Below the pieces are notes generated by a model that did no database searches, was not told the origin of the DNA, and worked only from the letters and a program-made list of their open reading frames with translations. A DNA stretch of 11,066 nucleotides, taken from Desulfobacteraceae bacterium (GTDB taxonomy: Bacteria > Desulfobacterota > Desulfobacteria > Desulfobacterales > Desulfobacteraceae). A program made the position numbers and the translations under genes. Shown here in pieces: positions 507 through 11,066 of this stretch (position 1 is the first letter of the stretch; each line of letters starts with the position of its first letter). The stretch is taken from assembly GCA_022712835.1 (NCBI GenBank), contig JAFLJU010000033.1, positions 1-11,066 of the forward strand, given 5' to 3'.

Positions 507-1313
507 CTAATCGAAGAGATCCGATCTTCTATTGGGTAAAAAATAACGCATTTTGTGGGAGCGAACTCTTTCCAGAGTGGTCAGATCAATATCCACAAAA
601 TGAATTTTCTCTTCCGGATCAATAAATTTGGAAACAATGTTTCCATCGGGTCCTATCAAGAGTGCGATTCCAGGAAAAACAAGCCCCCCTGTGTTATCCC
701 CTGTCTGATTAACCGCCGCGATAAATACACCGTTATCAAATGCTCTGGCAGTTAAATGCCGCATCCATGATTGGTATTTTTCTTCTGGGGTACCTCTGGG
801 GGAGGCGTGGGGAATAAAAATAATATCTGCCCCTTTAAGAGCCATGGCAGTGGATAGCTCAGGGAAATGGGCATCGTAACAAAGCTGAATACCAAACCGA
901 ACACTCTTGTGAGAAAAAAGATTTGTGCTGTTTCCCGGAGAAAAATATTCTTTTTCATTGGGAGCCATATGAATTTTTCGGTATCGCCCCATGGGACAAT
1001 TGGGGGAAAAAACAAGGTGGGATGCACAGATCCGATCCTGACCCACTTGTTCTGCCAACCCCACTAGGATAGAAATATCCAATCTTTCAGAAGTTGTGGA
1101 CAAAACGTGAATCAACTCGGGAGAGACAGAGGTTGCAAGGGAGCAGCTTTTGGGACCTGCCAGATACCCAGACAGGTTCATTTCAGGAAATACCACCATC
1201 TGGGCATTTTTAGATGCGGCAAGGCAAATGGCTTCCATACTGGCAGCCAGGTTTTTTTCATAGGCTCCAGGGATGCTCTTCTGAACGACAAGGGCAACCT
1301 TTAGATTGTTCAT
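507..1313 (-). CDS. Carbon-nitrogen hydrolase (nitrilase superfamily amidohydrolase)
   Basis: A 268-residue cytoplasmic enzyme of the nitrilase superfamily, a usual length for a single-domain member. These enzymes hydrolyse amide or nitrile carbon-nitrogen bonds through a Glu-Lys-Cys triad, all of which is visible: Glu44 in FPEMNLSGY, Lys113 in YRKIHM and Cys145 in GIQLCYD. A further Glu120 follows the lysine, as is common in the family. The substrate cannot be read from the sequence; omega-amidase, N-carbamoyl amidohydrolase or deaminated-glutathione amidase types are all possible. The start ATG overlaps the ahbA stop as ATGA, so the two genes are probably translationally coupled. The gene ends 42 bp from the convergent mlaA-like gene. 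Confidence 0.88.
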   Translation of the reverse strand: MNNLKVALVVQKSIPGAYEKNLAASMEAICLAASKNAQMVVFPEMNLSGYLAGPKSCSLATSVSPELIHVLSTTSERLDISILVGLAEQVGQDRICASHLVFSPNCPMGRYRKIHMAPNEKEYFSPGNSTNLFSHKSVRFGIQLCYDAHFPELSTAMALKGADIIFIPHASPRGTPEEKYQSWMRHLTARAFDNGVFIAAVNQTGDNTGGLVFPGIALLIGPDGNIVSKFIDPEEKIHFVDIDLTTLERVRSHKMRYFLPNRRSDLFD

Positions 1314-1765
1314 ACCTTGAAATTGGCAGAAATTTTAAACACCCGTGTCGCCGGTAAGTTTAATATGGTTTTCACTCCGGTTTTAGCGGAAATTTCTTCA
1401 AGGCTTTGCTTGATGATCTCCACAGAAGGGGCGATAAAGGTAAACCAGATATTAAAATGGTGATCTCGCCGGTAATTATGGGTAACCCCTGAATAGGTGT
1501 TGACCGTTTGGGTGAACAGGTCAATTTTATCTTCGTCCACCATGGCAGCACAAAGGGTTGAATGATAACCTAGCCTATCAGGGCTGAAATTTCCCCCGAT
1601 TCTTCGGATCAGCATCTCCTCTTTCATGGTGTTGATTCTGTCTAAAAGCTCGTCTTCGGAAAGATCCAGCTTTTCTGCGATTTTTTTAAAAGGTCTGGGA
1701 TCTATGGGGAAATCAAGCTGGATGCTGTTAAGAATTTTTTTGTTGGTATCATCAAGTAAGGGCAT
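1310..1765 (-). CDS. ahbA: Siroheme decarboxylase, AhbA-type subunit
   Basis: A 151-residue protein of the Lrp/AsnC-like fold that in this branch is an enzyme rather than a regulator. AhbA/AhbB decarboxylate siroheme to 12,18-didecarboxysiroheme, an early step of the alternative heme pathway used by sulfate reducers and archaea. An N-terminal winged-helix-like region (about residues 5-55) is followed by the effector-like domain, which carries the signature THNYRRDHHFNIWFT (residues 95-109) and the C-terminal NLPATRVFKI. As I recall the families, this signature fits the alpha (AhbA) rather than the beta subunit, whose equivalent segment reads differently. I chose the ATG at 1765 because a GGAG lies 6 nt upstream; a TTG four codons further out is less likely. 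No ahbB is in the window. The product should feed heme to cytochromes and shares siroheme with dissimilatory sulfite reductase. Confidence 0.8.
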   Translation of the reverse strand: MPLLDDTNKKILNSIQLDFPIDPRPFKKIAEKLDLSEDELLDRINTMKEEMLIRRIGGNFSPDRLGYHSTLCAAMVDEDKIDLFTQTVNTYSGVTHNYRRDHHFNIWFTFIAPSVEIIKQSLEEISAKTGVKTILNLPATRVFKISANFKV

Positions 1766-1771
1766 ACTCAA

Positions 1772-1775
1772 CTCC
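1772..1775 (-). promoter_or_regulatory. Ribosome binding site of ahbA
   Basis: GGAG on the minus strand, 6 nt before the ATG at 1765. It supports this ATG over the in-frame TTG at 1777, which overlaps the same site. Confidence 0.65.
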
Positions 1776-1789
1776 AAAAGCTGTTAATA

Positions 1790-2343: not shown

Positions 2344-3189
2344 TTAATACTCTTTCGGGGTCTGGTTGATTTCATCAAGAGTAAAGACGGGCCCGTCTTT
2401 ACACACCAGTTCTTTTCCAATATTACACCGTCCGCACATCCCGATACCACACTTCATTCTGTTTTCCAGAGACATGATAATCTGGTGGGGTTTATACCCA
2501 AGTTGGGTAAGGGATGGCTGGGTGAATTTAATCATAATGGGCGGACCACAGATGATCGCATAGGTATCATCATCGGCCTTGGGCGCATTTTGTTCAACCA
2601 CCTGGGGAACAAATCCGGTATGGTATTTCCAGTCAGGGTCATCGGTACCATCTACTGTGATATGCATATTGATATCATCCCGCTTTTCCCATTCAAACAA
2701 CTCTTCCCGGTAAAGAAGCATGCCCGGAGACCTGGCCCCGTAGACCACATCAATGTTTTTAAATTTGGGCCGGTTGGCCGGATCCAGCATGTAAACAATG
2801 GAAGATCTTAAGGTAGTAAAGGCAAATCCGCCGCCAATGATGACCACATTTTTGTTTTCAAGCTTATCCCAGGGATACCAGTTGCCCAAGGGGCCGCGGA
2901 TTCCCATGATATCTCCGATTTTCATGTTGTGAAGATGAGAGGTAACCACACCGGTTCTGAAAACAGTAAATTTTACAAATCCTTTTTCAACCGGGGATGA
3001 CGCAATCCCAATGGGAATTTCTCCCACACCGGGAATGGATAATTCTGCAAATTGTCCGGCATGGTAAGCAAATTTTTCTTCATCCCCTTCATTGAGAAAA
3101 ACAAATGTGAATGTTTTAAGGGATTTGTCTTCAGTTGCAATTTGGATGTCATCAATGCGAACTGGATACGGCATATAGGGGTTTTCCAT
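2344..3189 (-). CDS. FlxA/AsrB-like FAD- and NAD(P)-binding oxidoreductase with a [2Fe-2S] centre
   Basis: A 281-residue soluble flavoprotein of the ferredoxin-NADP reductase superfamily, resembling FlxA, AsrB (anaerobic sulfite reductase subunit B), sulfhydrogenase gamma and PyrK. The N-terminal FAD barrel includes GQFAELSIPG (about residue 45) and PIGIASSP (59-66). A Rossmann NAD(P) site follows with GGGFAFTTLRS (119-129), and CGPP near 214. The C-terminus binds one [2Fe-2S] cluster through Cys247, Cys252, Cys255 and Cys263. Such proteins exchange electrons between NAD(P)H and an iron-sulfur partner, here most likely the product of the gene 21 bp upstream, since FlxA-FlxB and AsrB-AsrA pairs are conserved. 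AGGAG lies 8 nt before the start. It is the last gene of the redox operon. Whether NADH or NADPH is used cannot be told. Confidence 0.87.
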   Translation of the reverse strand: MENPYMPYPVRIDDIQIATEDKSLKTFTFVFLNEGDEEKFAYHAGQFAELSIPGVGEIPIGIASSPVEKGFVKFTVFRTGVVTSHLHNMKIGDIMGIRGPLGNWYPWDKLENKNVVIIGGGFAFTTLRSSIVYMLDPANRPKFKNIDVVYGARSPGMLLYREELFEWEKRDDINMHITVDGTDDPDWKYHTGFVPQVVEQNAPKADDDTYAIICGPPIMIKFTQPSLTQLGYKPHQIIMSLENRMKCGIGMCGRCNIGKELVCKDGPVFTLDEINQTPKEY

Positions 3190-3210
3190 GTATTTGGCTC
3201 CTTTTGTTCG

Positions 3211-4263
3211 CTAATCTTTTTTCTCAAAAGTGTTCATGGTATGGGCAACTTTACGAATATCGATGTTAACCGGACAACTTTTTACGCACCGACCGCATCC
3301 GACACACATGATTCCCTGGTCATATTTATCCAGAAAGTATTTGAGTTTATGCATGAACCGCTGCCGGACTCTTTGAACCTTGACGCCTCTGGGGTTGTGT
3401 CCTGTGGCATGGCGGGTAAATAAAGGAGACATGCAGGTATCCCAGTTTCTAAACCGGGAACTTTCCTTTTGCTTGGCCTCATCCTGGATATCAAAGCACC
3501 AGCAGGTGGGGCAGACATAGGTGCAAGTGCCGCAATTAATACAGGAAAATGCCACATCATCCCAGAAGGGGGCCTCGTGAAGATCCAAAAGAACTTTTTC
3601 CGAAAGCTTATCTGTCTCAATGCTTGCGGAAATGTTTTTTTCCGCTTCTTTTCGCAGGATATCAAACAGGGCCTGGCTTTCCTTATCATCAGCCGTGGTC
3701 TCAAACCCGCAGGCAACAGCATAGGCTTCTCCCTTGGGTGTTAGAACCTTTGCCAAAAATTTGTCATCAAGATCTGCCAGCAGGATATCCAGTCCTTCTT
3801 CACAAAAAGGACCGCAGTCAACGGATGTAGAAAAATCAAAGGGACCGGGTTTGGTGATACCAAGACCCACCAGGGTGGTGGCTTCATAGGCGTCACACCA
3901 ATAGGGATCTCTATAGTCATCTGTGTCAAAGTTCATTTTGACCAAGAGGATGGCTTTTGCATCATAGGGTCTGATACCCAAAACCGCACGGGGGGTGTAG
4001 GTATTCTCGGCCCGCTTCATGATATGGTGATCATCAACGGCTTCATTGAGGCTTGTGGTTAAAATGGTCTCAGTCTGGGGGAACAGCACCGATTTTGCCG
4101 ACATGACCGACTCATGGTAATCCATATCCGGTACAACATCTGCATCTAGTGCCTTTATTTTACACCCGTTTTTATCTTTAACCGGGCCAAAAAGCTGATA
4201 GGTCTTACGGGATTTATCAATGCCTTTGGCCCAGTCCTTTTTATCAATTGTTATAAATTTCAT
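3211..4263 (-). CDS. FlxB/AsrA-like iron-sulfur protein with two [4Fe-4S] motifs
   Basis: A 350-residue protein of the AsrA / sulfhydrogenase beta / FlxB family, which relays electrons between a FlxA/AsrB-type flavoprotein and a catalytic partner. The N-terminal domain has the family motif VLGIRPYDAKAILL (about residues 94-107) and a region around DCGPFCEEGLDILLADL. The C-terminal dicluster domain has CINCGTCTYVCP (Cys241, 244, 247, 251), closely followed by Cys254 and Cys256, and CVGCGRCVKSCP (Cys320, 323, 326, 330). It has no signal peptide or membrane segment. An AAGGG lies 6 nt before the ATG. It is 16 bp after the FrhB-like gene and 21 bp before the FlxA-like gene, so it is almost certainly in the same operon and complex. 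Confidence 0.87.
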   Translation of the reverse strand: MKFITIDKKDWAKGIDKSRKTYQLFGPVKDKNGCKIKALDADVVPDMDYHESVMSAKSVLFPQTETILTTSLNEAVDDHHIMKRAENTYTPRAVLGIRPYDAKAILLVKMNFDTDDYRDPYWCDAYEATTLVGLGITKPGPFDFSTSVDCGPFCEEGLDILLADLDDKFLAKVLTPKGEAYAVACGFETTADDKESQALFDILRKEAEKNISASIETDKLSEKVLLDLHEAPFWDDVAFSCINCGTCTYVCPTCWCFDIQDEAKQKESSRFRNWDTCMSPLFTRHATGHNPRGVKVQRVRQRFMHKLKYFLDKYDQGIMCVGCGRCVKSCPVNIDIRKVAHTMNTFEKKD

Positions 4264-4279
4264 TGTATGCCCTTTTTAT

Positions 4280-5227
4280 TTACTTGATAAAATCATTGGG
4301 ATCTTCAGGACTAAACGAATCAAGAGGAGGCCGCTTACTGATATCAAGACCGGCTTCCCAGCCAAAAAATTCCAAAGCATCTTTGTTCAGCTTTCGCGTA
4401 AAATCCCTGACATTGATCCCCATGGGGCAGGCTTCAACACACGCACCACAATCGGTACATCTTCCTGCACAATGGAAGGCCCTTAAAAAGTGAAAGGTGT
4501 CCACATCCGTTTTATTTTGTCCTTTCCCAACCCACTGGGGGCCAGCTTCGTCCACAAAACAAGTGGGACAATAGCAAATGGGACAGGCATTTCTACAGGC
4601 ATAACACCGAATACAATTTTTTGTCAGGTCGGAAAAATGCTGCCATTTATCATCGGGGTCCAGGGCTTCAATGCGGTCCACGTCGGGAAATGGGTTCTCA
4701 AGCACTTGTTCTTCCACAAGATCTGCTGCCAGAACATCATAGAGCACCGGGTTTTTGTGGGTACAAAGCGAACAGTTTTCCCTTAAATAATCTTGTTTTT
4801 TTAGGGTTTGGGTCAAGGACAATGACGAAACTGTCAGGGTGTCATCCGCTTCTTCAAATCCTGTGATCTCATCTTTAAAGAGAGCGGCTATTTTAAATTT
4901 ATCCACCATGCCGGAACAGGGAACGCCTATAATGACAATTTGCTCCCGTTGAATTTGATTTTCAACAATATGGGTGACAAGATTTCTGGAATCGCATCCC
5001 TTGGCAATAATGGCTATTTTGCCCTTTTGTTTTCTAGCATAATTGGCAAGGTTCAGTCCGCAGGTTGAATTAAAAACAAGTTTTTCGATCTCCTGCTTTG
5101 ATCCAACGGCAATGGGACTGGTTGCCATGGGAATGGTTCCCTTGGCAAAACCAATCACGCGTTCCACTTCCCCTCGTTCAAGGAGGTCAGCTGCAAGCTC
5201 CCTGATTTTTTTTATACAGGTATCCAT
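4280..5227 (-). CDS. FrhB-like iron-sulfur protein with C-terminal dicluster ferredoxin domain
   Basis: A 315-residue cytoplasmic protein. The first 160 residues resemble the N-terminal region of the FrhB/FdhB (F420 hydrogenase/dehydrogenase beta) family, with KGCDSR (Cys78), GVPCSG (Cys104) and NCSLCTHKNP (Cys152, Cys155). The C-terminal half binds probably two [4Fe-4S] clusters: CIRCYACRNACP (Cys205, 208, 211, 215) with further Cys218, 220 and 223, and CTDCGACVEACP (Cys257, 260, 263, 267). FrhB relatives bind flavin and pass electrons to F420 or other acceptors; what this one uses is unknown, since sulfate reducers of this kind are not known to rely on F420. It may correspond to FlxC of the Flx-Hdr system, which I cannot confirm. 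It starts 13 bp after the mvhD stop, with AAGG upstream of its ATG. Confidence 0.8.
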   Translation of the reverse strand: MDTCIKKIRELAADLLERGEVERVIGFAKGTIPMATSPIAVGSKQEIEKLVFNSTCGLNLANYARKQKGKIAIIAKGCDSRNLVTHIVENQIQREQIVIIGVPCSGMVDKFKIAALFKDEITGFEEADDTLTVSSLSLTQTLKKQDYLRENCSLCTHKNPVLYDVLAADLVEEQVLENPFPDVDRIEALDPDDKWQHFSDLTKNCIRCYACRNACPICYCPTCFVDEAGPQWVGKGQNKTDVDTFHFLRAFHCAGRCTDCGACVEACPMGINVRDFTRKLNKDALEFFGWEAGLDISKRPPLDSFSPEDPNDFIK

Positions 5228-5240
5228 AAAAATAACCTTT

Positions 5241-5666
5241 TTAGTTATAGTCCTTTACAAATTTCTTATTGGGCCCCAGCGCTTTTACCTTTTCGGAGAT
5301 TTCCCTGACCACGTCCACAAATTTCGTGGCTTCAGCCGAAGAGATCCAGGAGAAATGAATTCTGTCCCTTTCGACTCCCATGTGCTCCAAAAGATTGCCC
5401 ATTAAAGCAAATTTCCTGCGTGCATAATAATTACCATCCAGGTAATGACATTCACCGGGATGTCAGCCGGACACCCAGACCGCATCAGCGCCTTCCCTTA
5501 AGGCAGACAGCATAAATTTTGGACTTAACCGCCCTGTGCAGGGGATTCGGATGACCCGGATATCGGCAGGGTATTGCATCCTGCTGACGCCAGCTAGATC
5601 GGCAGCGCCATAGCTGCACCAATTGCACAGGAACGCAACGATTTTTGTATTATTGTTTTGTGTCAT
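5241..5666 (-). CDS. mvhD: MvhD/FlxD-family [2Fe-2S] protein, selenoprotein (UGA read as Sec)
   Basis: A 141-residue MvhD protein, full length only if the in-frame UGA at 5463-5465 is read as selenocysteine (Sec68). MvhD joins HdrA to its redox partner with a [2Fe-2S] cluster. Before the UGA the frame gives [15 protein letters not shown] (Cys14, Cys17) and IPCTGR (Cys43). After it the same frame continues for 73 codons to TAA with [12 protein letters not shown] (Cys73), an uninterrupted MvhD C-terminus. In most MvhD proteins the motif is GCHPGxCH, so Sec replaces its first cysteine. A hairpin just after the UGA fits a bacterial SECIS element. The ATG at 5666 is preferred over the one at 5693 because AAGGAG lies 9 nt upstream and the outer ATG is inside hdrA. 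It lies 13 bp after hdrA. Automatic callers would end this gene at 67 residues and lose the rest. Confidence 0.92.
5420..5465 (-). promoter_or_regulatory. Bacterial SECIS element for the mvhD UGA codon
   Basis: Starting 17 nt after the UGA (5463-5465), the RNA forms a perfect 6-bp stem, AUUACC (5446-5441) with GGUAAU (5435-5430), closed by the 5-nt loop UGGAU. The guanines in the loop are 24 and 25 nt from the UGA, where bacterial SelB-binding hairpins carry their apical G. Below the stem, imperfect pairing can continue to GUG (5455-5453) with CAC (5422-5420). Location, loop and size match the bacterial SECIS pattern; this is by eye, not folded. Confidence 0.75.
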
Positions 5667-5675
5667 TATTGAACT

Positions 5676-5681
5676 CTCCTT
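5676..5681 (-). promoter_or_regulatory. Ribosome binding site of mvhD
   Basis: AAGGAG overlapping the hdrA stop codon, 9 nt before the ATG at 5666. It sets the mvhD start and suggests translational coupling to hdrA. Confidence 0.75.
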
Positions 5682-8600
5682 ATACCGCTTCATTCAGCGC
5701 AAAGATTTGTGCAAATATCTGATTTGTGTCAAAACCCTTAAGACGGATGGCACCGGACCTGCAGGAGGCTACGCATAAACCGCATCCTTTGCACAAAACC
5801 GGATTGATCTGGGCGGTTCCCTCAAACCGGCCGTCGGTTTCAAAGGCAGGAGCCGAGTAAGGGCAGATGGATACACAAACCCCACAGGAGCTGCATGCCA
5901 TTGGGTCAACAGCAGCCACATTACCGCTGGTATGCACGGTTTCTTTTGCCAGCAGGGTAACCGCTCTTGATGCAGCTGCCTGGCCATGGGCAATGGCTTC
6001 GTCAATGGGTTTTGGATAGTGGGCAAGTCCGCAAAGGAAAACACCATCGGTTGCAAATTCCGACGGCCCCAGTTTTGCGTGTCTTTCCACAAAGAACCCG
6101 TCTTCATTAAGGGGCACCTTGAAGAAGTTGGCCAAGCGTTCATCTTTATTGGGAACAATGGCCGTGGCCAAGGTCACAAGATCGGTCTGAATTTCCATGG
6201 GCCGACCCAGCACGTGATCTATTGTGCTGATAAGCACTTTTCCATCCTGTATCGACACTTTGGGTTTATTGTCCACAGAGTACCGGATAAAGATGATCCC
6301 GGCCTCACGTGCCTGCTGATACTTATATTCCCGCTCCCCATAGGTTCTGATGTCCCTGTAGAGGATAAAAATTGACATTTCAGGATTGATTTTCTTCAAT
6401 TCCAATGCATTGTCTATGGAATGGGTACAGCATACCCTGGAGCAATAGGGACGTTCCTTTTCCCGGGACCCGACACATTGAATAAATACCGCTGACCCAA
6501 TGGATTTGAGGGCAGGGTCCTTTTCTATGAATCGTTTGTCCAGATCCAGGCTGGTGATGATCCGATCATCCTTTCCATAACTGTATTCAGTAGGAGTTGA
6601 CCCATGTGCACCTGTTGCAATAATTGCAACTCCGTGTTCAAGGGAGGATGTTTTTTCCTCGGTTAACAGCTCTGATTTGAAACTGCCCACAAAGCCTTCC
6701 ACATTTTCAAGGCTTGTGTTGAGATGGATGTGAACTTTTTCATTGTTTTGTACATCCTTGACCAAAAGGGCAAGCTCATCGGCAATCATTTCACCCTTAT
6801 AGGTGTGATAAAGCTTGTTGGCTTGTCCCCCGAGTTTTGCATCCCTTTCAATAAGATGCACCTCATACTCCTGTTCCGCCAGATTTTTGGCAGCTACCAT
6901 ACCGGAAATCCCACCGCCGATGACCATGGCAACGGGTTTGACCTGAAGTTCCGCTTCTTCCAGGGGTTCCATGAGTGCCACCTTGGCAACCGCCATGCGC
7001 ACCAGATCCTTGGCTTTTTGTGTGGCAAGATCCGGTGAGTCTTTATGAACCCAGGAAGCATGGTTCCGGATATTGGTCATTTCAAATAAATATTTATTCA
7101 ATCCGGCATTGATCAGGGTTTCCTGGAAAAGCGGCTCATGGGTTTTAGGGGTACAGGCCGCCACCACGATTCGGTTGAGTTTATTGGTCTTGATAATCTG
7201 ACTCATGCTCTCCTGGGTATCCTGGGAACATGAATAAAGAGAATCTGTATAATATTCAACATAGGGCAGGGATGCGGCATAGTCCCGGACTTCTGGAACA
7301 TTTACAACCCCTGCGATATTGGTACCGCATTTACAAACAAATACGCCGATTCTGGGACGTTCTCCCACAATATTTGTTTCCGGAATTACCTCGGGAATTT
7401 TGGTCAGCGTATTTCTGGCACTGGCAAGCATTGCGCCAGCTTCTCCAGCAGCAGCAGAGGAGTCCACAACTGCCTGGGGAATATCCTTGGGTCCCTGGAA
7501 AGCACCGGCAACAAAGATGCCTTTTCTGTTGGTTTCCACCGGTTTAAAGGTGGTGGTTTTGGCAAAATTTCCGTCGGTGAGTTCAATGCCCAGTTTTTTG
7601 GCCATATCAACGATTTCAGGAGAAATTTCCAGACCAATGGACAGAACGATCATGTCAAAAATTTCTTCAATATTTTTCCCATCATCACTTGTATAGGTGA
7701 TCATGAGGTCTCCGGTATCACCGACGGGCACAACCGTATGGACGCGGCTTCTCTGGAATCGAATTCCCTGGTCCTTGGCCCTGTTGTAATATCGCTCAAA
7801 ATCCTTGCCATGGGTTCGCATATCCATGTAGAAGATGGCGCAATCTAAGTCATCTCCGGCATGTTCCTTGGCAATGACGGCTTCCTTGAGGGCGTACATG
7901 CAGCAGACAGATGAACAATACTTGTTGTCGCATTTGTTCATGTCCCTTGACCCCACACATTGGAACCAGGCCACTTTTTTAGGTTCTTTACCATCGGACT
8001 GCCTGGTTAAATGACCAGATGTTGGACCCGATGCCGAAAGAATTCTCTCAAACTCCATGGCGGTCATAACATTGGGGTGGTTTGCATATCCGTAATTGTC
8101 AAATTTGGACGGATCAAAGGGTTCAAACCCAGGGGATAATACCACCGCCCCAGCGTCGATCTCGATGATTTCATCTTGCATGGTATGATCGATGGCATCC
8201 ATTTGACAAATTTCAGCACACACCTTGCACCCGCCGGTTTTAAAATGGATACACACATCCCGATCAATGGCAGGAGTGTTGGGGACTGCCTGGGCGTAGG
8301 GCACGTAAACCGGTTTTCTGCCCTTAAGGCCCATCTCATACTCCGAAGGAATAAGAGATGGATTTGCTTTGGTATATTCATTCTTGATTTTTTCAAGACT
8401 GATGTGACCGGTGGGACAAACCGAGGCACATGCACCACATGCCATGCAGACATCCGATTTTTGTCCAAAGGGAGTGTTGATCTTAAGATCCACGCCCCGG
8501 CCGGTGAAATTAATGGCGCTGTTGCCCATTTTATCACACATGCGCACACACAGGCCGCACAGGATACAATCATCCCCTTCTTTTTTGAAACGAGGCGCAT

Positions 8601-8934
8601 CAATATTGTATTGCTTGGCCAGTTTTTTTAACAGGGGGACCTCGGGACATCGGGCATATAGTGTCTCAATAATGAGTTTTCGACCCTGGTGAATCGTTTC
8701 TGTATCGGTGTTGATTTCCATGCCTTCCCAGATGGGATAGTTGCATGCCGTTACATACTTTGTCCTTCTGCCGTCAAACATTTCCACGGTGCAGATCCGG
8801 CACATTCCGGCCGGATCAAGGGCTTTATGATGGCAAAGTGTGGGAATGGTTATGCCGTATTTTTCAGCTACCTGAATGACATACTGACCCTCTTCGCCCT
8901 GTACTGTTTTGCCGTTTAATTTAAAAGTAATCAT
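5680..8934 (-). CDS. hdrA: HdrA-type FAD/iron-sulfur protein with NuoG-like N-terminus and duplicated HdrA core
   Basis: A 1084-residue soluble flavoprotein, much longer than the roughly 650 residues of methanogen HdrA, the site of flavin-based electron bifurcation. Order of parts: a NuoG-like [2Fe-2S] domain (Cys34, 45, 48, 64); two [4Fe-4S] motifs (Cys123, 126, 129, 133 and Cys163, 166, 169, 173); another Cys group (228, 236, 239, 243); an HdrA C-terminal-like half (about 205-510) with CVGSRD and SSVCC (326-345) but no FAD glycine motif; an HdrA N-terminal domain with CKCG (534, 536), Cys569 and Cys594; the FAD motif GGGISGM (673-679); a second CVGSRE and CSRVCC (820-836); and two C-terminal ferredoxin motifs (Cys1014-1024 and Cys1048-1058). 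The N-terminus probably docks the NuoEF-like subunits encoded just upstream. AGGAAGG lies 8 nt before the ATG. The motif CSRVCC keeps cysteine where some HdrA proteins have Sec. Confidence 0.92.
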
Positions 8935-8956
8935 GGGTTTAACCTTCCTGCATCCA

Positions 8957-9001
8957 AATGATTATTAGGATTTTATCATGTATAATTGCGGCATGATTAT
9001 T
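8957..9001 (-). repeat. Overlapping repeats between the nuoF-like gene and hdrA
   Basis: The 62-bp gap is the longest inside the operon. It has two direct copies of ATGATTATT (8958-8966 and 8993-9001) and, between them, ATCATG (8975-8980), which can pair with either flank (CATGAT at 8992-8997 or ATGAT at 8958-8962). This would allow two alternative small mRNA hairpins, one next to the hdrA leader. The arms are short and AT-rich, so chance is a real possibility. Confidence 0.3.
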
Positions 9002-10850
9002 TAATGACAATGGCATTAAACTTACAATTGTCGTAGCATATTCCACATTTGATACATTTTGCCTGATCCAGAATATGGGGTTCCTTTTTCGTGCCGGTGA
9101 TGGCTTGATGAGGGCACTTTTTTGCACACAGAGTACAGCCAGTACATGCAGTTTCATCAATTTCCAGATGGAAAAGAGGCTTGCAGACACCGGCGGGACA
9201 TTTTTTATCATTTATGTGTGCTTCATATTCGTCGCGGAAATAATGAATCGTTGACAGAACCGGATTGGGTGCTGATGTACCAAGGCCACACAGGGAAAAT
9301 TTTTCAATCATGGCTCCCAATTCCTCCAGAAGCTCTATATCCCCTTCACGGCCTTTTCCGTCGCAGATCCTTGTCAAAATTTCAAGCATCTGTTTTAATC
9401 CTTCCCGGCAGGGGTTGCACTGACCGCAGGATTCATCCTGGAGAAACTCCACAAAATACCGGGCAACTTCAACCATGCAGGTATCCTGATCCATGACAAT
9501 CATGCCACCGGATCCCATGATGGACCCCACCCTGGAAAGTTCATCAAAATCCACGCCCAGGTCCAGGTGGGCTTCAGGGATACAGCCACCGGATGGACCG
9601 CCGGTTTGAACGGCTTTAAATTTTTTCTTTTTGGGTACGCCGCCACCAATATCGAAGATAATAGTACGAAGGCTGGTTCCCATGGGAACTTCCACAAGGC
9701 CTGTGTTCACCACCTTGCCCACAAGGGAGAAAATTTTGGTCCCCTTGCTATGTTCTGTACCGATGGTGCAATACCAGTCAGCCCCACGGTTGATGATGGT
9801 GGGTACATTTGCCCAGGTTTCAACATTATTCAGGCAGGTGGGGCCATCCTTGAATCCCTTTTCAACGGTGTGGACATATTTTGCCTTAGGTCGGCCAGGT
9901 TTGCCTTCCAGGGATGCCATGAGAGCCGTGGATTCACCACAAACAAAGGCACCACCGCCGCGACTGATGGTGATATCCAGGTCAAAATCTGTACCCAGAA
10001 TATTTTTGCCAAGCAATCCATATTCTCGAATTTGTTCAATAGCCAAGGAAAGGTTTTTCACCGCCAGGGGGTACTCATGGCGGACATAAACATATCCCCG
10101 GGTTGAACCCATGGCAAGAGCTCCGATGATCATGCCTTCCAGCACACTGTGGGGGTTGCCTTCCAGAATACTTCGATCCATATAAGCCCCTGGATCCCCT
10201 TCGTCGGCATTACAAATCACATATCTCGGACCGTCAAATTTGGCACAGGTTTTCCACTTCACCCCTGCAGGAAATCCCCCGCCGCCGCGGCCCCTTAATT
10301 TTGATTTGGTTATTTCCTCTAATATAGTCGTGGGTGTCATGTCCGAAAGCGCTTTTGCCAGGGCGCTATAGCCGCCAACAGAGATATAATCATCAATGTT
10401 TGTGGGATCAATTTTGGCGTTATTACCAAGAATAACCCGCTGCTGCAGGCTGTAAAAAGGAATCTGATTTTCCAAAGAAACCTTTTTCTTGGTTGATTCT
10501 ATTTTAAAAAGACGGGCCTGGACAAGCTCCCCATTTTTAAGGGTTTTTTCTACAATTTCGGCCATGTACTCTTTTTTTAATTTTGAATAAAAGATCCCTT
10601 CAGGATGGATAACCATGATGGGCCCTTTTTCACAAAACCCATGGCAACCTGTTAATTTGACTTCAAATTTATCCTGAAGACCATGTTTGTTCAACTCGTT
10701 TAACAGCTCATCATATACACCGGAGGTACCGTATGCAGCGCAGCCGGAGCCAGCACACAAAGAGATCAGTCTTTTGTTTTGGCTGGTTCTCTCACTTATG
10801 ATGGAATCTCTATGCTTTTGTAAGGCGTCAATACTCGTAAGTTTTACCAT
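8997..10850 (-). CDS. nuoF: NuoF/HndC/HydB-like NADH-binding FMN iron-sulfur subunit
   Basis: A 617-residue protein with the layout of the flavin subunits of NAD-linked hydrogenases (HydB, HndC), longer than complex I NuoF. Its parts are: a thioredoxin-like [2Fe-2S] domain (Cys32, Cys37, Cys69, Cys73); the FMN/NADH core with GRGGGGFPAG (187-196), NADEGDPGAYMDR (214-226) and FVCGESTALMASLEG (302-316); the N3-type [4Fe-4S] ligands Cys475, 478, 481 and 521; and a C-terminal dicluster ferredoxin (Cys569, 572, 575, 579 and Cys599, 602, 605, 609). It should exchange hydride electrons with NAD(H) and pass them to HdrA, whose N-terminus resembles NuoG. The ribosome binding site is weak: only a G-run about 14 nt before the ATG. 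It follows the NuoE-like gene by 9 bp. No hydrogenase catalytic subunit is present in the window. Confidence 0.94.
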   Translation of the reverse strand: MVKLTSIDALQKHRDSIISERTSQNKRLISLCAGSGCAAYGTSGVYDELLNELNKHGLQDKFEVKLTGCHGFCEKGPIMVIHPEGIFYSKLKKEYMAEIVEKTLKNGELVQARLFKIESTKKKVSLENQIPFYSLQQRVILGNNAKIDPTNIDDYISVGGYSALAKALSDMTPTTILEEITKSKLRGRGGGGFPAGVKWKTCAKFDGPRYVICNADEGDPGAYMDRSILEGNPHSVLEGMIIGALAMGSTRGYVYVRHEYPLAVKNLSLAIEQIREYGLLGKNILGTDFDLDITISRGGGAFVCGESTALMASLEGKPGRPKAKYVHTVEKGFKDGPTCLNNVETWANVPTIINRGADWYCTIGTEHSKGTKIFSLVGKVVNTGLVEVPMGTSLRTIIFDIGGGVPKKKKFKAVQTGGPSGGCIPEAHLDLGVDFDELSRVGSIMGSGGMIVMDQDTCMVEVARYFVEFLQDESCGQCNPCREGLKQMLEILTRICDGKGREGDIELLEELGAMIEKFSLCGLGTSAPNPVLSTIHYFRDEYEAHINDKKCPAGVCKPLFHLEIDETACTGCTLCAKKCPHQAITGTKKEPHILDQAKCIKCGICYDNCKFNAIVIK

Positions 10851-10859
10851 AATTATTAT

Positions 10860-11066
10860 TTAACCCCCTTCTACCTCAGAGGTTTCCTTATATGTTTCCA
10901 ATATATCAAGCGCTTTGGATCGATCAAGGCCACCATGGATTTCTTTATCAACCGTAAGAACAGGACCGGATGCACAGCACCCGATGCACCGGACACCTTC
11001 CAGGGAAAATTGTCCATCTTCGGTTGTTTGTCCCTCGTCTATGTTCAATTCCTCTTTATAGGCATC
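10860..11066 (-). CDS. nuoE: NuoE/HndA/HydC-like 24-kDa [2Fe-2S] subunit, 3' part
   Basis: Only the last 68 residues are in the window; the frame is open to the right edge. The 24-kDa subunit binds a [2Fe-2S] cluster and works with the NuoF-type subunit. The visible part has the family pattern TTEDGQFSLEGVRCIGCCASGP, abbreviated here to its key residues: the second ligand pair is the first Cys of CIGCC and the last one (C-x3-C), with one extra Cys between them, followed by the conserved GP and a valine-rich stretch. The TTG at 11048 is not the start, since upstream codons continue the family sequence. It is the first visible gene of the operon; promoter and regulators lie outside. Confidence 0.88.
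   Translation of the reverse strand, partial: DAYKEELNIDEGQTTEDGQFSLEGVRCIGCCASGPVLTVDKEIHGGLDRSKALDILETYKETSEVEGG

Follow-up and report, generated by a model that had tools for sequence, protein, structure and literature searches.

We analyzed the 11,066-nucleotide (nt) stretch at positions 1 to 11,066 of contig JAFLJU010000033.1 (forward strand; GenBank assembly GCA_022712835.1, a Desulfobacteraceae bacterium), here called the window, for a seven-gene set that joins a NuoEF-type NADH (reduced nicotinamide adenine dinucleotide) module to a single HdrA and an Flx-type module. The seven genes all lie on the minus strand with intergenic gaps of 9-62 nt and look like one operon, in agreement with the initial annotation, which had described seven tightly spaced genes; Pfam and NCBIfam agreed on their identities. 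The features, with the neighboring dsrC, are as follows (aa, amino acids; FAD, flavin adenine dinucleotide; FMN, flavin mononucleotide; Sec or U, selenocysteine).

10860..11066, minus strand: nuoE, a BfuC-like [2Fe-2S] subunit of thioredoxin fold, the last 68 codons only, truncated by the window end
8997..10850, minus strand: nuoF/BfuB, HydB-type, 617 aa, with an N-terminal [2Fe-2S], an FMN/NADH domain, and C-terminal 2x[4Fe-4S]
5680..8934, minus strand: NuoG-head/HdrA-HdrA fusion, 1,084 aa, the single HdrA gene of the operon
8380..8934, minus strand: NuoG/BfuA-type head of the fusion, residues 1-185, occupying the place of the FAD-I Rossmann fold of an ordinary double HdrA
7363..8367, minus strand: HdrA-I remnant, residues 190-524, which retains E296, K350, and one cluster (the second) of the inserted ferredoxin domain
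5683..7362, minus strand: HdrA-II, residues 525-1084, with an N-terminal iron-sulfur domain, the FAD fold GGGISG at 673, and C-terminal 2x[4Fe-4S]
5241..5666, minus strand: flxD/mvhD, 141 aa, a likely selenoprotein (Sec68)
5463..5465, minus strand: in-frame TGA in flxD, read as selenocysteine (VSGUHPGECHY)
4280..5227, minus strand: flxC-like gene for an iron-sulfur protein of FdhB/FrhB fold, 315 aa
3211..4263, minus strand: flxB, an AsrA/sulfhydrogenase-beta-like 4Fe-4S protein, 350 aa
2344..3189, minus strand: flxA, an AsrB/sulfhydrogenase-gamma-like FAD and [2Fe-2S] NAD(P)H subunit, 281 aa
1858..2175, minus strand: dsrC, 105 aa, with C93 and C104, neighbor of flxA at a gap of 168 nt

The neighborhood search that the initial annotation had proposed found the identical seven-gene order at 14 further unique loci; because the order recurs there, chance clustering was ruled out. 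No hdrB/hdrC or hydrogenase gene was seen within the window, as had been stated earlier, and no BamBC tungsten benzoyl-CoA reductase subunit was found among its annotated genes. Full-length nuoE is present in the related loci L001 and L029, the L001 NuoE matching PF01257, and the first large gene upstream of nuoE in L001 is a divergent miaA (Pfam IPPT).

The single HdrA consists of two HdrA units fused in one protein, and by its motifs a NuoG-type iron-sulfur head stands in place of the first FAD fold. The head holds ligands for one [2Fe-2S] cluster (C34/C45/C48/C64) and two [4Fe-4S] clusters (C123/C126/C129/C133 and C163/C166/C169/C173). These are A1-, A2-, and A4-type clusters with no A3 motif, the pattern of the Type 2 Bfu enzymes, in which BfuA has A1, A2, and A4 without A3 and A5, and extra subunits deliver electrons (PMC9304861); here, BfuA is the head of HdrA and not a separate subunit. 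The last [4Fe-4S] motif of the head aligns with the first cluster of the inserted ferredoxin domain of HdrA, whose second cluster follows. In methanogens, this domain of HdrA is described as the one that hands electrons on to ferredoxin, and in type III HdrA the GltD insert sits beside it (PMC9012536, PMC12054007). In the window HdrA, a GltD-type domain was found on neither side of the NuoG head; the Rossmann match falls in HdrA-II. An ordinary double HdrA has two FAD folds and the window HdrA one, in its second unit; its HdrA-I remnant shows no GxGxxG FAD fold and no TNDC motif. Both features are present in the ordinary form and absent from the window and all 14 NuoG-headed relatives. Loci with the ordinary head (L003, L004, L010, and others) have another TGA in frame, within TNDCAMU close to the first FAD fold; some lineages have C at this site, and the NuoG-headed form has lost it.

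Two residues, K409 and E356, mark bifurcation in HdrA (PMC12054007). Their equivalents in the window are K350 and E296 of HdrA-I, the unit without the FAD fold, whereas HdrA-II, which has the fold, carries D at both positions. In the NuoG-headed HdrAs, the K409 position was K in HdrA-I (16/16) and D or E in HdrA-II (16/16). Neither half thus holds a complete canonical bifurcating site, because HdrA-I lacks the FAD fold and HdrA-II lacks K409. These residues bear on an alternative in which ordinary Flx-Hdr chemistry persists with HdrB-type partners in trans, HdrA bifurcating from NADH to ferredoxin and, at high potential, to DsrC while NuoEF serves as a second NADH/ferredoxin port. The retention of the K409/E356 equivalents in HdrA-I speaks for it, but the loss of the first FAD fold and the TNDC motif, together with the missing K409 in HdrA-II, speaks against it.

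The NuoEF side carries the marks of a bifurcating enzyme. Bfu enzymes are defined by a BfuBC core, and their B2 ligands include a His that nonbifurcating homologues lack (PMC9304861). We mapped the published Bfu residues onto the window NuoF by a constant offset of 20, which agrees with the 7t2r_B range. All B2 ligands were present (C458, C496, H545, C551, and C556), as were C475/478/481/521 and the eight B3/B4 cysteines, and the B1-B4 ligands, including the five B2 ligands with the diagnostic His, were kept in 20/20 sequences (the window and 19 NuoG-headed relatives). C32, C37, C69, and C73 are probably the B5 ligands of the N-terminal [2Fe-2S] cluster; they occur in the window and 8 other NuoF rows of one clade (clade A), and the second clade (clade B) has GMASCGIAAGA, with a single Cys replacing the clade A CxxxxC pair near the N-terminus, in 11/11. 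The closest solved relatives by sequence were 9mqx_B and HydB-type subunits. The cluster ligands place NuoF, as a predicted member, in the ferredoxin-linked, bifurcating Bfu (HydABC-type) family, which bears out the HydBC-type NADH module of the initial annotation.

The remaining four genes, the FrhB-like gene, mvhD, and the FlxBA-like pair, together are an FlxDCBA module. The Flx subunits are FlxA, FlxB, FlxC, and FlxD, and the assignment was made by domains and gene order. The earlier description of one HdrA amid two pyridine-nucleotide modules therefore stands, but the Flx-like pair is part of this module rather than something added on its own. For the FrhB-like protein, Pfam gave iron-sulfur matches only. 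Its AlphaFold model (predicted local distance difference test [pLDDT], 88.3) matched FdhB of the Fdh-Hdr complex (7bkb_E) with a template modeling (TM) score of 0.74 and an E value of 1.6e-17, and FrhB more weakly; given these matches, the FrhB-like label was right. With its predicted FdhB/FrhB fold, the protein is, by its place, FlxC-like. FlxD appears to be 76 aa because of the in-frame TGA at 5465-5463; Sec readthrough gives 141 aa. Over 136 loci, including 4 duplicates, the site was U in 85 and C in 41, with the pattern unmatched in 4 and FlxD missing in 6, and this Sec/Cys exchange ruled out a 76-aa fragment. The search for a selenocysteine hairpin in flxD gave no Rfam match, and folding gave a z of -1.79 with 10/200 shuffles equally good, which is weak evidence.

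To survey the partners of this core, we scanned genome contigs with the FrhB-like protein, which gave 36 loci and, with 100 further regions, 136 loci (132 unique). The protein itself was found at E <= 1e-25 in 68/86 Desulfocicer-family genomes and 226/395 sampled genomes of the phylum. HdrA heads and CCG (HdrB-type) genes were called by motif searches along the operons. Among the 132 unique loci, the head was of the ordinary FAD type in 70, a NuoG head in 14, and a GltD insert in 26; of the other 22, 6 were cut, 10 gave no HdrA in the upstream walk, and 6 matched no head class. HdrA-FlxD-FlxC-FlxB-FlxA was the steady part across loci, and the same FlxDCBA order stood in relatives with ferredoxin/CCG genes just upstream, such as L123 and L134. 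This core of FlxDCBA and double HdrA has exchangeable partners, either NuoEF with the NuoG head or CCG proteins or a GltD insert, and some loci have none in cis. In the operon walk, NuoF accompanied 14/14 NuoG-headed, 0/70 ordinary, and 0/26 GltD-insert loci, a count that leaves out the NuoF of L088 and L129, located there before a different HdrA. CCG motif genes stood in the operon at 16/70 ordinary, 6/26 GltD, and 2/6 unclassed loci and at 0/14 of the NuoG-headed relatives, consistent with the earlier statement that no hdrB/hdrC lies in cis. NuoEF is thus the part that comes and goes, and FlxDCBA is the steadiest part. At L009:1603-4434, L022, L059, L060, L082, and L089, a membrane protein and a CCG protein lie upstream of an ordinary-head HdrA-Flx operon. 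The membrane protein is nitrate reductase gamma-like, with several 4Fe-4S ferredoxin-type motifs and a CxxCH (Pfam on L009 only), and this arrangement suggests a quinone-linked form of the same core.

Of 1881 candidate proteins, 1458 matched the NuoG head at E <= 1e-10, not necessarily all of them fusions. Among the 120 matches listed, nearly all were 1,077-1,093 aa, with four shorter ones (916, 826, 810, and 618), and they included NuoG-HdrA fusions of the cultured Desulfatitalea tepidiphila, D. alkaliphila, and Desulfatirhabdium butyrativorans. Close NuoG heads (at least 66% identity) were found in 10/86 family genomes and 8/395 phylum genomes. More distant NuoEF-(NuoG-HdrA) operons (L142-L153) lack Flx and mostly have MvhD (L142, L144-L153), and ferredoxin- and CCG-motif genes lie upstream of the distant operon in L142 and L143. 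The operon of L088 (G146:C2) combines NuoEF and FlxDCBA with two HdrAs, one NuoG-headed and one ordinary, a possible intermediate or hetero-pair of HdrAs.

Such loci raise the alternative of two separate enzymes, NuoEF-HdrA and FlxDCBA, on a shared transcript. NuoEF-HdrA without FlxD at L137 and L138 would fit it, as would the succession in L088 of NuoEF with NuoG-headed HdrA and then ordinary HdrA with FlxDCBA. However, the window and its 14 relatives have one HdrA and one FlxD each, the NuoG head and NuoEF occur together in 14/14, and HdrA keeps the C-terminal ferredoxin domain that contacts MvhD in methanogens (PMC9012536). We therefore consider two enzymes quite improbable.

The trees point to exchange of these parts. 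The NuoF proteins of NuoG-headed loci formed two clades in a tree whose bootstrap had not settled. The window falls into one of them, and L001 and L002, which are closest to it in HdrA, fall into the other. The HdrAs of the window and L001 are 91% identical (93% over 808 body columns), and their NuoEF (window 8997-10850 and L001:4361-6271) are of different clades. The HdrA body rejected the window's NuoF clade as one clade (approximately unbiased test, p-AU 2.4e-53; quick tree). On the FlxC tree (FastTree; long branches flagged), the NuoG head (15 rows) needed 10 changes, of which starred branches force at least 6. Each of 500 label shuffles nevertheless needed more (mean, 14.4), and the head is thus partly inherited as well. 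On these trees, head types switched several times.

We compared the operon with known systems. It shares the FlxDCBA module, HdrA, and a likely DsrC partner with Flx-Hdr (FlxABCD-HdrABC) of Desulfovibrio and relatives, but has no hdrB/hdrC, a double HdrA with the first FAD half replaced by the NuoG head, and NuoEF upstream. The Bam complex, a class II benzoyl-CoA reductase, contains an MvhD-like BamF. As a Type 2 Bfu, Bam has a NuoEFG-like module and HdrA in common with the window (PMC9304861), but here the NuoG head is fused to HdrA, and FlxCBA stands in place of the tungsten enzyme. A two-stage cascade like that proposed for Bam would work in two steps: by reducing DsrC, HdrA would shift electrons from NADH to a lower potential, and NuoEF would then split them again to bring ferredoxin far below -500 mV. 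The resemblance of parts (NuoEFG and HdrA; PMC9304861) and the cascades proposed for type II HdrA (PMC12054007) lend it some plausibility. It depends, however, on HdrA still bifurcating at a site that looks dismantled, and nothing in our analysis shows such low potentials, making the cascade very unlikely.

In Stn, the Sporomusa-type Nfn (Nfn-Bfu), bifurcation takes place in a NuoEF-like module and not at the GltD-type flavin (PMC10482914), giving a precedent for moving the engine. The likeness lies in a NuoEF engine beside a flavoprotein that bifurcates in another family and does not do so there, whereas the window partner is HdrA-Flx and not a GltD/NuoG fusion, and NADPH (the phosphorylated form) use is not expected. 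In type III HdrA, or HdrL (named in PMC2702500), another module, GltD, is spliced into the same HdrA region, the inserted ferredoxin domain, but the GltD form keeps the first FAD fold and has no NuoEF. A 2013 study of Desulfotignum phosphitoxidans noted nuoEFG-mvhD and nuoGEF-mvhD-hdrA units (PMC4046663), which likewise cluster NuoEFG with mvhD and hdrA; the sections of that study consulted do not mention an HdrA/NuoG fusion, an Flx module, or dsrC. The main text of the Bfu paper (PMC9304861) gave no match for Flx, MvhD, or FrhB, and the parts of the open-licence literature covered did not name a NuoG-HdrA fusion or a NuoEF-HdrA-Flx operon.

As to redox partners, the aspartate of the FlxA TVD motif (D180 in the window) was present in 122/123 sequences, and the NADPH-using sulfhydrogenase I subunit has S at the aligned position. 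By the rule after cytochrome b5 reductase, an Asp at this place presumably means NADH, and D180 suggests NADH use by FlxA. An NfnA-family protein (NF004862, which we take to be NfnA) was found in 38/38 genomes in a search for the NfnA subunit alone, and NADPH/NADH exchange as a missing function was accordingly disfavored. CofD was found in 0/18 genomes, with the control matched in 3 archaea, and coenzyme F420 was rejected as a substrate of the FrhB-like subunit. Both results make NADPH or F420 a less likely missing partner.

The initial annotation had proposed a link between two pyridine-nucleotide pools such as NADH and NADPH, which would correspond to a Stn/Nfn-like transhydrogenase that oxidizes NADPH at FlxA and reduces NAD+ and ferredoxin at NuoEF. 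Bfu thermodynamics would favor NADPH or another third substrate with a potential near -400 mV. Stn works in this way with the same NuoEF module (PMC9304861, PMC10482914). Against it, the FlxA aspartate fits NADH-type relatives, and the closest Desulfobacula-type loci, with and without NuoEF, have an FlxA 90-98% identical to that of the window. Because of the NADH-type aspartate and the NfnA-family protein in all 38 genomes, a NADH/NADPH split is disfavored, and we regard a transhydrogenase as rather unlikely.

The same annotation had also suggested a thiol/disulfide carrier, for which dsrC next door is a candidate. Exactly one dsrC-family match above 100 bits, the sole canonical dsrC, was found per genome in the 38 genomes. 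It lay within 4 kb of flxC in 30/38 (13/14 NuoG-headed, 13/16 ordinary, and 4/8 GltD); in one of the eight misses (G480), flxC was near a contig end. The window DsrC has both C-terminal cysteines, C93 and C104, and this neighborhood points to a functional link between dsrC and Flx. DsrC reportedly interacts with FlxABCD-HdrABC. A promoter scan gave a 10/12 match upstream of dsrC, but with 26 matches found against 19.2 ± 4.2 expected, and it was not used as evidence. Beyond dsrC lie the siroheme decarboxylase subunit gene ahbA and a carbon-nitrogen hydrolase gene (Pfam/NCBIfam), an order (window 510-1777) common to many Desulfobacteraceae loci; a presumably MlaA-like gene lies opposite.

CCG-family proteins occurred in 22/22 genomes (10-46 matches each), so that an HdrB-type partner in trans is possible; matches in 10/14 control genomes show that the family is not HdrB-specific. 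Together with dsrC adjacency, this favors the ordinary Flx-Hdr chemistry set out above, which the 0/14 CCG genes in cis disfavor. On balance, we judge ordinary chemistry unlikely, and DsrC a likelier partner than NADPH.

The reading that we prefer, and hold tentatively, is a soluble Flx-Hdr-type complex of a Desulfobacteraceae sulfate reducer in which a Bfu (HydABC-type) bifurcating module may have assumed the role of the HdrA half that bifurcates at FAD. The Bfu module would replace the FAD bifurcation site and the ferredoxin port of HdrA, in parallel with Nfn versus Stn. Electrons from NADH at FlxA would pass through FlxB, FlxC, and FlxD (Sec) to the C-terminal ferredoxin domain and FAD of HdrA-II, and onward through the HdrA-I clusters and the NuoG head to the FMN of NuoF. 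NuoEF would couple NAD(H) and ferredoxin by an FMN/Fe-S mechanism, as in Stn, with HdrA mainly a wire. The third redox partner, reached via HdrA, would most likely be DsrC, as a thiol/disulfide or trisulfide, contacted either directly or by way of a CCG protein from another locus. The complex would then balance NADH, ferredoxin, and DsrC; the proposal sets no direction or stoichiometry. A broader claim is more doubtful: that, in one conserved operon, NuoEF/FMN bifurcation has supplanted HdrA-FAD bifurcation on more than one occasion, with separate exchange of NuoEF and of the NuoG head, and that the product is an NADH-/ferredoxin-coupled DsrC oxidoreductase with HdrA as a wire, the HdrA counterpart of Nfn to Stn.

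Several points weigh against the engine swap. K350, E296, and much of a 10-residue stretch are conserved in HdrA-I, which is odd for a flavin-less half. The AlphaFold model of the HdrA fusion was poor (pLDDT 63.9; predicted TM score, 0.46) and was not used further; it lends the proposed electron wire no structural support. NuoEF-HdrA lacks an adjacent FlxD in L137 and L138 (genomes G050 and G403), so the two sides can stand apart; the Flx operons found in these genomes carry the ordinary head (L080, L083). Adjacency of dsrC is not specific to the NuoEF form (ordinary, 13/16), one NuoG-headed genome is without it, and the DsrC link draws on gene order and an interaction known from a cited title. 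Finally, because FlxA and NuoF are both NAD-linked, there is no useful reaction without a third partner. We consider the anatomy and the modular exchange well supported and the engine swap a reasoned inference.

The clustering of NuoEFG with mvhD and hdrA had already been noted, but the proposed Flx-Hdr variant with a Bfu module in place of HdrA FAD bifurcation would be new. Which cofactor bifurcates in HydABC/Stn-type and in HdrA-type enzymes is an active question, and since both kinds of engine sit on the same Flx core in close relatives, they can be compared on one background. The apparent swap of the electron-splitting end for a type found in hydrogen-making enzymes suggests that such engines are exchanged like plug-in parts. 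As the locus lies beside dsrC in many sulfate reducers of the family, it may explain an electron route from NADH and ferredoxin to cytoplasmic sulfite reduction.

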